Part shown: positions 31,128 to 39,000 of the stretch, in pieces | How positions within the stretch are numbered: position 1 is the first letter of the stretch | Layout of the letters: every line of letters starts with the position of its first letter | NCBI GenBank assembly: GCA_014879565.1 | Contig: JACSRW010000041.1 | Span: 1-64,000 of the forward strand | Length of the DNA: 64,000 nucleotides | DNA from: Chitinophagaceae bacterium | Lineage (GTDB): Bacteria > Bacteroidota > Bacteroidia > Chitinophagales > Chitinophagaceae | Direction of reading: 5' to 3' | Program-made: the position numbers and the translations under genes | Notes under the pieces: generated by a model | The model's database searches: none | The model's input: the letters and a program-made list of their open reading frames with translations, nothing else | Told to the model about the DNA's origin: nothing

Positions 31128-31226
31128 GTTGAGGGGTTGAGGGGTTGAGGGGTTGAGGGGTTGAGAGGTTGAGAGGTTGAGAGGTTGAGAGGTTGAGGGG
31201 TTGAGAGGTTGAGAGGTTGAGAGGTT
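31128..31226. repeat. tandem repeat, about 12 copies of an 8-bp unit GGTTGAGG/GGTTGAGA
   Basis: direct reading of 31128-31226. Confidence 0.95.
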
Positions 31227-31281
31227 CCCGCAACCATAATTTTGATAGAACTACTACTAACTTCTAACTCCTATCTGCATA

Positions 31282-31371
31282 CTCCCGTCTCCTATCTCCC
31301 GTCTCCCGTCTCCCGTCTCCCGCCTCCCGTCTCCCGCCTCCTATCTCCCTCCTCCCGTCTCTTCTGCCATT
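31282..31371. repeat. pyrimidine-rich simple repeat, CTCCCGTCTCC/CTATCTC units
   Basis: direct reading; complement of the GGAGACGGGAG motifs at 9.15 and 63.87 kb. Confidence 0.9.
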
Positions 31372-33459: not shown

Positions 33460-36012
33460 ATGAAACCATTACTGCTGGCAGGATGCCTGCTGCCTGTACT
33501 TTGCGCGGCCCAGACCAGGGGACCGGTGATTGCTGAAGACTACCTGCGGCTCATCCGCAAAGACAGCAATCAGATCCGATGGTCCGACAGTACCAATAAC
33601 TTAAAAACAGCCTGGCTCAGGGGAGAGCCCTTCAATCTTTACAATTATCAGTCGGTAAGGAAAATCATCACGGGAAAAAACAACCGCCTGCGCATTATTC
33701 CCGGTTTTGAAAAAACGCTTTATACCGGGGGCAGTTACAGCCAGACGATTGAATGGCAGCAGCGAAACCGGATACCCGCTCTGCAGCGGGAATTTTCCCA
33801 GGGCCGGCCGGGCGGGGGACAATATCAATGGCGGGGACCCGAAACCCATGAACTGTTCAGTTATGGCCCCGCATTATCCGGACTGGTATATGACGGGACT
33901 GCCTATGCCTGGGATGTAAACGGCAGGCTGGTTACTGCCGGCAGCAATAACAGCCGCAGGGCCAATTCCTACACAAACTCCGTTTTCCGCAACGGGATAC
34001 AGTTCAACAATAACATTAATGTATATGCGAAGTTAAAGAGTGCTCATAATAAATTCATGAACCTTACCCTCTCCGCAGGGCAGGTAAGCAACAAAACCAT
34101 ATTGAGGAAAAATTCCGTTTTTTCGGATCAGCTCAGCTTTTTATTCAACGGGCAAAATAAGCGTTTCATTTTTTCATCTTCCTGGAGCCGGCGGGAAGAG
34201 CAGGATGATTACAGTAACCGGGATGGTTTTCTGCAGCGGGTATACCTGTACAGTTTGCTCAGCCCGGTCAGTTTTTCTGCTGAACAGGGCCTCCGGTTAC
34301 CTGGCGGCCAGCGTAGTTACAGTGCGGAGGCCGACAATCCCTTTTTCCTGCTTGACAATCCTGCAAGGGGTCTGCGACGGGTTCAGGAAACCCGCTCTTT
34401 GGGTGTTGAGTTTACACCCGGACGTTTCCGGGTCAGACTTAACCAGTCCTGGGAGCAGGATACAGAAAAAAGTCAGGAATACAGGGAAGCCGGCACCGCG
34501 GGTTTTCCGGCGGGTTTACAGGCAGAGAGAAATTTCAGCTACCGGGTTTATTCACTCAACAGTCAGCTGAATTTCTCCGTTCCCTTCACGGATTATAAGT
34601 TCCGCGCTGATGCTGTGCTGAATTATATACTGACTGACAGCCGCAGCCGGATAGCATACCCCTTTCAGCAGTTATTTTATGCTTACCATCGTTTAAGCCA
34701 GGAAGCCAGGATAAGTTTCCATCCATCAGTCCGGCTGAATACATTTGAAGCGGGACTGGAACTGGCCGGAAAATTCCGGCATTCGGGTACCAGTACAACA
34801 AACCTGAACCTGATGCCTTCCGTATCCCTTTACAACTGGATATACAATCCGTTTGACTGGAGCTGGATGGATATAAAAATAACGGGATCGTATAACCGCT
34901 TTGACAGTGAAATATCACTTGACCAGTCCTTTGCGGGCACGGCACTCCTGCTGACCGATCCGGATCAGTTCAATACATACCTGCCCCTTCAGGAAGCCGG
35001 CAGTTTTGCCGGGCTGAAGCCATTGCAGCACCGCGAATACCAGGCCTCTGCAGCATGGTATCTTTTCCGGAGAGTGGTTCAATTATCTTACTCCTGGTAC
35101 CGGCGTTCGGTAAAGGAGGATATATTTCCCCTCCGGCAGGGAGGCGAATGGCAGCTGGTCAATCTCGCCAGCCATGTCACCCGGGGCACCGAAATCATGC
35201 TGGAGCTGTATCCCTGGCAATATAAACGGCAGCAACTAAAGCCCGGACTCATCGCCAGTTTTTTCCGTTATCGCAGTAAAGTCACCGGTATAAAAGAAGG
35301 ATACAATCATCTTCCTCTTGCCGGCTTCCGCGGTATCCACAAAGCACTGGTAAAGGGAGAAGCGCCCGGTGTCATCCGGGGCAGCGGCTGGCTGCGCAAT
35401 ACTGCGGGGAATGTCATTATTGGTCAGGACGGTTTTCCGCTTGCAGATACCGCTTTGAAAACAATCGGGAACCCCCTACCTGACTTTGTCATTAAGTTTT
35501 CCCCCCGGCTTCAGTTCCGCTCGTTTGATTTTTCCATGGACTGGGAATGGAAAAAGGGCGGACAGATCTGGAATGGTACGGCTGCTGTTTTGAATTACTA
35601 CGGCAGATCTGCAGAAACAGCCAGACAGCGATCCTATACGGGGTACCTGTTCAACGGAGTGCTTTCCGACGGAACGCATAATACCCTTCCTGTATCATTC
35701 AGTGACCCTTCCCGGCCAATAGAAGAAAACCGATGGGTCCGTTATGGACTTTCAGGTGTGGCAGAAGAATATATTCAGCCTGCCGATATTCTCTCTATAC
35801 GCCAGGTCAGTCTTACCTGGAAGCATGCCTTCAAAAAAACGCTGAAACAATTTACTGCAGGCATCTATGCCGCCAATCTGCTGGTTTGGACCCCCTATAA
35901 GGGAGCCGATCCCGGTCAGCTCCTGCTGGATAAACCCGGAACCGAAGGTCTTGATTTCTTTAACCTGCCCTCTGCCCGGTCGGCCGGCTTCACCCTAACG
36001 CTTCAATTCTGA
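33460..36012 (+). CDS. SusC/TonB-receptor-like outer-membrane beta-barrel lacking a recognisable plug domain
   Basis: signal peptide; strand-rich barrel-type sequence ending in ...GFTLTLQF; no VVVTG, RGLASINGNNEPLYVINGVP-like or ILKD plug motifs in its 850 aa. Confidence 0.8.
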   Translation: MKPLLLAGCLLPVLCAAQTRGPVIAEDYLRLIRKDSNQIRWSDSTNNLKTAWLRGEPFNLYNYQSVRKIITGKNNRLRIIPGFEKTLYTGGSYSQTIEWQQRNRIPALQREFSQGRPGGGQYQWRGPETHELFSYGPALSGLVYDGTAYAWDVNGRLVTAGSNNSRRANSYTNSVFRNGIQFNNNINVYAKLKSAHNKFMNLTLSAGQVSNKTILRKNSVFSDQLSFLFNGQNKRFIFSSSWSRREEQDDYSNRDGFLQRVYLYSLLSPVSFSAEQGLRLPGGQRSYSAEADNPFFLLDNPARGLRRVQETRSLGVEFTPGRFRVRLNQSWEQDTEKSQEYREAGTAGFPAGLQAERNFSYRVYSLNSQLNFSVPFTDYKFRADAVLNYILTDSRSRIAYPFQQLFYAYHRLSQEARISFHPSVRLNTFEAGLELAGKFRHSGTSTTNLNLMPSVSLYNWIYNPFDWSWMDIKITGSYNRFDSEISLDQSFAGTALLLTDPDQFNTYLPLQEAGSFAGLKPLQHREYQASAAWYLFRRVVQLSYSWYRRSVKEDIFPLRQGGEWQLVNLASHVTRGTEIMLELYPWQYKRQQLKPGLIASFFRYRSKVTGIKEGYNHLPLAGFRGIHKALVKGEAPGVIRGSGWLRNTAGNVIIGQDGFPLADTALKTIGNPLPDFVIKFSPRLQFRSFDFSMDWEWKKGGQIWNGTAAVLNYYGRSAETARQRSYTGYLFNGVLSDGTHNTLPVSFSDPSRPIEENRWVRYGLSGVAEEYIQPADILSIRQVSLTWKHAFKKTLKQFTAGIYAANLLVWTPYKGADPGQLLLDKPGTEGLDFFNLPSARSAGFTLTLQF

Positions 36013-36015
36013 TAT

Positions 36016-39000
36016 ATGAAAAGAAATTTCCTGCTCCTTATTCTTCTATTTGTACTGGCCTGTTCCCTGTTTGCCCAGGATTATGCCGCATCCAAAGAAA
36101 AAATATACCTGCATACCAATCACCATTTCTTTAAACCGGGTGAAACCTTGTTTTTTAAAGCCTACCTGGTAAAGGGAGAAGACAATACCCCGGGTGATAT
36201 CAGCAGTGTCATGCAGGCTGAGCTGATCAGTCCTTCAGGTACCGTTGTGCAGAAATCCCGTTTCCCTGTAAAAGACGGGTATGCGGAAGGCAGTTTTGAT
36301 TTCCCGGAAGAGGCTCCCGGAGGTCTATATAAAATCAGGGCCCGGACCAGCTGGATGCAGAACGAAAAGGAGGATCAGTTTTTTGTAAAGGAGATCATTC
36401 TGCAGAAAGTTATTGCCCCCAGGATCCTGCTGAAACTGGATATTCCCGGAAAAGGGTTCGGACCGGGTGATGAAGTGACTGCTTCGTTTTCCATGCGCAG
36501 TCTCAGTGATCAGCCCATTGCCGGGCAGGATGCTTCCTTCACTGTTTTTATTGGCGGTAAATCCGTTCAGCAAACTGTTTTCACGACCACCCGGGAAGGG
36601 AAAGCCAGCATCCGCTTTCATTTACCGGCCAGTCTGTCCGTGAATGATGGCCTGTTGAGTGTAACCGTAAAATATGATGGATTTACAGAGTCGGTTTCCC
36701 GCAGCATTCCCATACTGCTCAACCAGGTAGCCATACAATTTATGCCGGAAGGAGGCAGTTTTGTACAGGGTCTTCCCAACCGGGTGGCGTTTAAAGCGCT
36801 GAATGAGTTCGGAAAAGCTGCCGATATCAGCGGAGAGATTGTAAACCAGGCGGGAATTAAAGTCGCGGAATTCCGTTCCTTTCATTTTGGTATGGGTCTG
36901 TTTAGCATCCGGCCGCTGCCGGGAGAAACCTATTCGGCCCGTATTCTCTCTCCCGCCGGAATCAACCGGTTGTATCCCCTTCCTGCAGCCGCCGGAAGCG
37001 GTTTGCTGCTGCAGGCTGACAGAAACGGGGAAAAAATACAAGTACGGTTATACAGTACTGTTAGTATGAAGGTAAAAATCCGGGGTACTGCCAAAAACAC
37101 AGAATACTATTCGGAAACGATCCGTCTCGAAAACGGGGAAAAATCCGTTTATATCAGGGAAAAGGATTTCCCGGCCGGTATTATCCGGTTTACCGTTTTC
37201 AGTGAAACGGATCTGCCCCTGGCCGAAAGGCTTGTCTTTCTGAACCGCGACCGGCAGCTGCAGGTACAACTGGCATTTGATAAGAAACGGTATCAGCCCC
37301 GGGAGAAAGTGACCCTTCGTATCCGCACAACAGATCAAACCGGCTCACCGGTTCCCTCCAACCTCTCTCTTTCTGTGGTGGATGATAAATTGTGGACGAT
37401 GGCTGATGATAAACAGGACCATATCCTTTCATGGCTCCTGCTGGGCAGCGAACTGAAAGGAAAAGTGGAAGAGCCGCCGTTCTATTTTAAACAAGATGAG
37501 CCAAAATCTCTTCCTGCGCTGGATCTGCTCATGCTTACACATGGCTACCGTTATTTTGATTTTACCGAGTATGTGGTGAAGGAAGGCCGGCTGCAATTCC
37601 TGCCGGAACAGGAGCATATAGTAAGCGGGGTGGTGCAAAACCTTTCCGGAGAGCCGGTACAGGCAAAAATGTTTATCCTTCAAAACAAACCAGACGGCCG
37701 GGCGCTGGAATTTATTACCGGGGAAGACGGGCAGTTCTTTTTTTCAGGCCTGGAGCCCAATAGTCAGTATTATCTTTTTGCCCAGTCACTTAATCAAAAA
37801 GGAAAACTGCAGATCCGTATCCTGCAGAACGGAATCGGTTATAACCCGATGAAGACAGGAACATTCAGTTTGCTGGGTTCGCGGCCAATGTCATTTGACG
37901 GAGTGAAAGAAACAATCATTCAGCAACGAAAGCAAACCATGGAGCCGGGACAGCTACCTGGTTTTCGTGACGCTAATGCCCTGCAGGAGGTGGTGGTAAC
38001 AGGTTCTGGTTCCGCCCGGAAAAAAGACATAGTTGGCTCGGTTATGTTTATCCGGCAGGAAGATATTCTTCTGCAGACGAATCTGCAAAATCAACTGGCC
38101 GGTAAAGTGGCCGGTTTGCAGGTCCGTTTCAAGGCCAATAACCCGGATGGCAACCAGATTCGGATCAGGGGACTGGCTTCCATCAATGGGAACAATGAAC
38201 CCCTCTATGTTATTAACGGTGTACCGCTTGACCGGTTTCGTTTGAATACACTCAACCAGCACGATATTGAATCCATTACCATTCTTAAAGACGGAGCCGC
38301 CACTGCGCTCTACGGGCAAAGGGCGGCCTGGGGGGCTATTATAATTGAGACCAAAAAATTCAGGCAGGAAAGAATGGCCCTTAAATTCGGTAACCGGTAC
38401 ACCTATACCACACAGTACTTCACTACAAACGGCACAGCCTATACCCCCGTCAGAAAGTTTTATGCCCCTTCGTATAGTTCCGTTTTCACGGAGGAACGGA
38501 CCGATTTCAGGGAAACGATTTACTGGAACCCGGTAATCCAGACCAATAAGGAGGGTACCGCAGTTGTGGAATTCTATAACTCCGATGCCAGCACCACTTT
38601 CCGGGCTGTTACTGAAGGAATCGGATTTAATGGTATGCCAGGCCGTACAGAACAAACTTATGCCGCCCGGACACTACTGCAGGCAGACTGCAAAATACCA
38701 CCCTATCTTACCACCGGGGATGAGGCCTTGCTGCCACTTGTTATAAAAAACAATGGTGAAAAGCCGGGAATTTTTTCGGTCCTGGTCAGCGCGCCTGAAC
38801 ATTTTAAAACGGGCGCTTATAGCCGCTCTGTCACCATTGCTGCGGACAGTACCCTGCGGGTATCCATTCCGCTGGAAGCAGTTGCTGCATCCGCCGGAAG
38901 CCTGCGGATTGAGATCAGCGGAGAAAATGAAAAAGAAACACTAATTCTTCCGGTTCAGGCTGTTGATAAAGGTTTTCCAGTCCGGCTGGTTATGTCGGGT

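Follow-up and report, generated by a model that had tools for sequence, protein, structure and literature searches.

A2Ms of the E. coli/Salmonella type, represented by ECAM/YfhM and SaA2M, combine an MG2 domain, a bait-region domain, a PF00207 domain, a thioester (TED) domain with a CXEQ motif and a C-terminal MG10 domain; the ECAM-like type I forms additionally carry a lipobox inner-membrane anchor and are encoded adjacent to pbpC. The complement proteins C3 and C5 feature a folded module (ANA) at the equivalent point of MG6, the removal of which triggers the thioester. The SusC/RagA proteins, such as BT2264, BT1763 and RagA, are by definition single polypeptides, in which a CPR-like domain, a TonB box and a SusC-type plug accompany a 22-strand barrel. 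Separate closure of a channel is seen in the T9SS SprA translocon of F. johnsoniae, a large outer-membrane channel that is closed by a distinct Plug polypeptide. A delta-plug strain of the latter system is mentioned in the literature (PMC12611786).

Here we describe a pair of adjacent genes from a Chitinophagaceae bacterium, found in a stretch of 64,000 nucleotides (contig JACSRW010000041.1, positions 1 to 64,000; hereafter the window), in which a SusC-like barrel lacking a plug is followed, 3 nt after its stop codon, by an A2M-like protein with a plug at its bait site. The features of the pair are as follows:

33460..36012, + strand: plug-less SusC-like 22-strand outer-membrane barrel, 850 aa
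36016..40503, + strand: A2M-like protein with a plug at the bait site, 1495 aa
36016..36078, + strand: A2M signal peptide, residues 1-21 (by inspection)
36103..36378, + strand: MG2 domain, residues 30-121 (Pfam)
37249..37389, + strand: end of A2M_BRD/MG6-alpha strand, residues 412-458 (Pfam)
37396..37620, + strand: highly conserved segment ADDKQDHILSWLLL..., putatively LNK-like, residues 461-535 (mean conservation 0.70)
37621..37794, + strand: carboxypeptidase-regulatory-like (CPR; CarboxypepD_reg) domain, residues 536-593 (Pfam)
37834..37980, + strand: bait-like hypervariable linker, residues 607-655 (conservation, length variation, pLDDT)
37981..37998, + strand: TonB-box-like LQEVVV, residues 656-661 (alignment with relatives and SusC BT1763)
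38020..38334, + strand: TonB-receptor Plug, residues 669-773 (Pfam, E 3.4e-16)
38446..38514, + strand: alpha'NT-like segment with R828 and F831, residues 811-833 (conservation)
38515..38766, + strand: A2M domain PF00207 (MG6-beta onward), residues 834-917 (Pfam)
39097..39912, + strand: thioester (TED) domain, residues 1028-1299 (Pfam, E 1e-27)
39136..39147, + strand: thioester motif CFEQ, residues 1041-1044 (77 relatives)
40135..40458, + strand: C-terminal MG10/receptor-binding-like domain, residues about 1374-1481 (to 1483) (Pfam)

The downstream protein shares the MG2, bait-region, PF00207, CXEQ-bearing TED and C-terminal MG10 elements with ECAM/YfhM and SaA2M, but has a CPR domain, a TonB box and a plug in place of the bait and lacks matches to the N-terminal bMG1, A2M_bMG2 and bMG3. 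A Foldseek search with it recovered A2M-fold matches, including ECAM and SaA2M, with C3 as the best, and its thioester motif, GCFEQ, is invariant in 77/77 relatives. Thus, by its thioester, domain order and bait position it is a true member of the A2M family. The inserted module differs from that of C3/C5 in being a transporter plug rather than an anaphylatoxin. Further, in contrast to the ECAM-like type I proteins, its partner is a barrel gene and there is no conserved lipobox: across the family no conserved lipobox Cys was found in the A2M signal peptides, which are of the non-lipoprotein kind. The same genome codes for a second A2M of 2081 aa (L022:7454-13699, contig C1) with MG2, PF00207 and bMG10 domains and no TED match, which is possibly of a thioester-less type.

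The first-pass annotation had placed the plug within 37360-38640, at about the point where the bait region of an A2M is expected. Its coordinates and motifs are correct. This interval corresponds to residues 449-875 and encloses the plug stretch, and the placement itself is borne out by Pfam boundaries, alignment with ECAM, the residues R828/F831 and a disordered segment in plug-less relatives. The Pfam A2M_BRD match covers profile positions 96-136 of 140, and the interval in question, from VVDDKLW460 to YW836, holds the CPR domain, the linker, the TonB box and the plug. In ECAM, A2M_BRD ends at 905 (AVDSGVLN, 898-905) and the aligned MG6-beta begins near VNIVVQQ 965; in a profile comparison, ECAM from 965 onward pairs with the window protein from 837 onward (VNIVVQQ with approximately 837-842), and the thioester motifs of the two proteins also align with each other. 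Given that the published ECAM bait, Arg923-Leu942, lies between the end of A2M_BRD at 905 and 965, the plug falls in the very interval that holds the ECAM bait. These landmarks, common to both proteins, rule out insertion of the plug into an unrelated linker, and its position is not a matter of chance because 76/77 full-length relatives place it identically.

In A2M, the alpha'NT signature R732/F735 is located after the bait and passes through a channel (PMC9352918). In the corresponding segment of the window protein, R828 is retained as Arg in 74/77 relatives and F831 as Phe in 76/77. We take these to be the counterparts of R732 and F735, a residue match that draws in part on the human A2M sequence. 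In the plug-less A2M relatives the same site is occupied by a CPR domain and then by a long disordered stretch, acidic and rich in proline, that has the look of a bait.

N-terminal to the plug, residues 611-650 show the lowest conservation of any 40-residue stretch in the protein (mean 0.25 versus ~0.60 overall in the 77 full-length relatives). The linker ranges in length from 41 to 75 among these relatives and is predicted to be disordered, with a pLDDT <50 from residue 618 on in the AlphaFold model. Right after it comes LQEVVV (656-661), which corresponds to the TonB box VDEVVV of SusC BT1763 (PMC7782687) and is well conserved in the alignment: L in 74/77, E/D in 74/77 and V/I in 75-76/77. 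Similar strings also occur near the N terminus of 18/76 barrels, so the A2M is not strictly the sole bearer of such a box.

The hypervariability and disorder of the bait-site linker (607-655), the intact thioester and the long bait-like segment at the same site in plug-less relatives would all fit an ordinary protease-bait A2M, in which a cut in the linker or the plug leads to collapse, the plug serves mainly as an exposed, sacrificial bait or a releasable tether, and TonB has no part in triggering. We consider this possible, if doubtful, for a simple bait needs neither a conserved TonB box nor a dedicated barrel that is always present; moreover, as the linker lies N-terminal to the plug, a cut there would leave the plug still held on its C side, with just one end freed. 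SusC plugs are known to be able to leave their barrel, upon which they become protease-sensitive (PMC7782687). The release or repositioning of the plug by protease cleavage, as the first-pass annotation had proposed, is plausible.

The upstream protein supplies what the A2M lacks of a SusC protein. A Pfam search returned no domain match and no plug for it, and it matches the NCBIfam SusC profile TIGR04056 only at profile positions 273-981, the barrel part. The A2M matches the same profile at positions 74-224 (residues 652-800, E 6.9e-47), making the two halves complementary, and it also scores above the cut-off of the SusC signature TIGR04057. Its CPR domain (536-593) occupies the position of the SusC N-terminal extension. 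The AF2 model of the upstream protein (pLDDT 88.1) is an empty barrel of 22 long strands. Foldseek against the PDB gave SusC proteins as the best matches, led by BT2264 (E 2e-39); a phmmer search of PDB sequences gave no match, so that relatives emerged only from the fold search. Its Flavobacteriaceae relatives display a signal peptide, a CPR-type N-terminal extension and the barrel without a Pfam plug; they are SusC proteins with the plug cut out. Thus, the pair shares with SusC/RagA the SusC-type plug, the TonB box, the preceding CPR-like domain and the 22-strand barrel, but it falls outside the SusC definition in that plug and barrel are two polypeptides, with the plug lodged in an A2M.

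This arrangement is conserved as an operon. A scan of GTDB genomes with peptides lying outside the plug and the barrel (WMQNE[KN]E and ADDKQDH) yielded 80 loci from Chitinophagaceae, Flavobacteriaceae, Roseivirga, other Cytophagales, Saprospiraceae and Desertivirga. Together with the window, a plug-less barrel is encoded upstream on the same strand in 75/75 evaluable loci, the remainder being cut by contig ends (at L100, a barrel lies beside a cut A2M). The gap between the two genes is -20 to +30 nt in 72/75 loci, with a median of 4 nt, and a plug match was sought and not found in any barrel of this set. Among 399 genomes of the order, full-length plug-A2Ms and strong barrel matches (E<1e-100) occur in the same 17, in all cases adjacent as judged by coordinates; beyond these 17, G120 and G277 have a pair with a partial plug. 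A class-wide draw of 396 genomes added three full-length plug-A2Ms, two with an adjacent barrel and one (G803) cut by contig ends. The idea of faulty assembly or annotation, or of a single isolated gene fusion, merits next to no credence: about 80 independent genomes, drawn from several families, share the architecture, which rules it out. In Niastella caeni (L030:7385-9703), the barrel ORF lacks the usual C-terminal strand, lies 216 nt from the A2M and looks frameshifted.

The surroundings of the pair in the window have features of their own. Intergenic short tandem repeats flank the gene group at 31128-31226, 31268-31361 and 40540-40626, with units of an 8-mer (GTTGAGAG, x12), a 7/21-mer and a 7/14-mer (CCACTTT/CCACTCTCCATTTT), and ORF calls starting at TTG or ATG extend through them. 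Downstream, on the minus strand, 42583-46410 encodes 2-oxoacid:ferredoxin oxidoreductase-like subunits along with a ferredoxin-like gene; these oxidoreductase genes keep their neighborhood in two relatives of the genus (L016 and L017).

Clustering of the flanks of the loci identified no conserved third neighbor gene across families. This bears on an alternative under which the barrel and the A2M-borne plug import peptides or proteins through TonB pulling, with the A2M taking no part in protease inhibition but receiving the cargo in the periplasm through covalent or steric binding. The conserved TonB box would suit such a role, as would the closest solved barrel, BT2264, whose SusCD complex structures carry oligopeptide ligands (PMC7782687). 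However, the pair differs from SusC/RagA in showing no conserved SusD-like neighbor in this clustering, and neither a peptidase nor an inner-membrane transporter is conserved beside it; hence, we regard import as unlikely to be its function.

The bait site shows further variety within this A2M lineage. A Cytophagales A2M (L099:162-5201) displays two CPR domains and a TonB C-terminal domain (PF03544, residues 866-941, E 6e-13) at this site, the plug being absent. Two larger A2Ms of about 1800 aa (L166:5019-10511 and L167:2412-7811) have CPR domains and a partial plug there, with no adjacent barrel; their N termini extend beyond the first MG domain by an additional region, and a short ORF lies just upstream. 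Part of the plug is missing at two Saprospiraceae-type loci that retain the barrel; in the barrel-A2M pairs L163:2379-9495 and L164:981-8187, just the first half of the plug (Pfam Plug 3-70) remains alongside the retained barrel. Finally, a separate and common family of half-length A2M-like proteins of about 820-937 aa (L185:5364-8072, L186:4435-7107, L187:4779-7250, L191:4927-7641, L192:4464-7055 and L193:4909-7614) features MG domains, a divergent plug at the same site and MG6-beta, and then stops, with neither a TED nor an adjacent barrel. The varied parts of the TonB system at this site indicate that the bait site of this lineage took them up repeatedly, and strict pairing with the barrel belongs to the full-length plug-A2M form.

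Some of these variants, namely the short proteins with a plug but no adjacent barrel and the truncated plugs persisting in L163/L164, raise the alternative that the plug no longer docks and instead serves the bait loop as a folded adaptor or spacer, the barrel having been kept for another role, such as anchoring the MG domains or forming a constitutive pore. A mirror-tree comparison is also in line with it: barrel distances correlate better with those of MG1-6 (r 0.95) than with those of the plug (0.54), so that the plug was not singled out as coevolving with the barrel. This is weak evidence against docking, as the plug is short and fast-evolving, and it does not help the docking model. The plug-anchoring glutamates offer mixed evidence for a plug-barrel fit: that of the PE motif (window L522) never varies in intact relatives but persists in just 11/23 split barrels, while that of GxE (window E578) is E/D in 21/23. 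Nevertheless, a non-docking plug seems to us distinctly improbable, given that nearly all paired A2Ms retain a full-length canonical plug with R718 (75/77), K758 (74/77) and the TonB box, and that a barrel without a plug would leak. Modeled alone, the plug gives a low-confidence AF2 structure, which is consistent with the isolated FepA plug behaving as unfolded (PMC11658791).

Taken together, the dedicated plug-less barrel and the TonB box, neither of which the first-pass annotation had picked up, suggest docking of the plug in the barrel, with TonB force as a second possible trigger. Our main reading, to which we assign a probability of roughly 0.6, is that the products of the adjacent genes form a single machine of the envelope: a SusC-type TonB-dependent transporter divided between two polypeptides, with its plug in the bait position of an A2M. 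The upstream protein would be the empty 22-strand barrel, and the downstream protein a secreted A2M that contains a thioester and has the N-terminal module of SusC (CPR, TonB box and plug) in place of its bait. In this machine the plug probably docks in the upstream barrel. Both ends of the SusC plug face the periplasm (PMC7782687), so that a periplasmic location is expected for the A2M body, whose plug would enter the barrel from below, and the docked plug would thereby tether the A2M trap beneath the pore. The genome encodes TonB and ExbD, which might pull on the TonB box of the A2M; on balance we favor such coupling. The trap could be triggered in two ways: a protease may cut the variable linker next to the TonB box, or TonB may extract the plug by pulling. 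Either event may disturb the bait/alpha'NT segment, causing the A2M to collapse and expose its thioester to whatever enters; that a cut or extracted plug triggers the thioester in this manner strikes us as close to an even bet. The full picture, a TonB-powered two-protein thioester trap in which the plug of the gate is the bait, and opening or cutting the gate arms a covalent trap beneath the pore, is advanced tentatively, at somewhat under even odds.

In the open-licence literature (subscription papers and preprints being outside its scope), our searches turned up neither a plug-bearing A2M nor this pair, and no natural transporter with a plug in trans. The SprA system likewise consists of a channel and a separate closing polypeptide, but its proteins are unrelated to those described here, and it features neither a TonB box nor an A2M. 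The presence of the pair in about 80 genomes, many of them from cultured strains, makes it experimentally reachable, and it represents a natural test of a TonB plug working as a separate protein. If the proposal is true, the A2M would be the first of its superfamily for which force, and not only proteolysis, is a trigger, and the transporter would be the first natural TonB-dependent one to have its plug in trans; the pair would join an A2M/complement trap and a TonB-dependent outer-membrane gate in one conserved Bacteroidota module.
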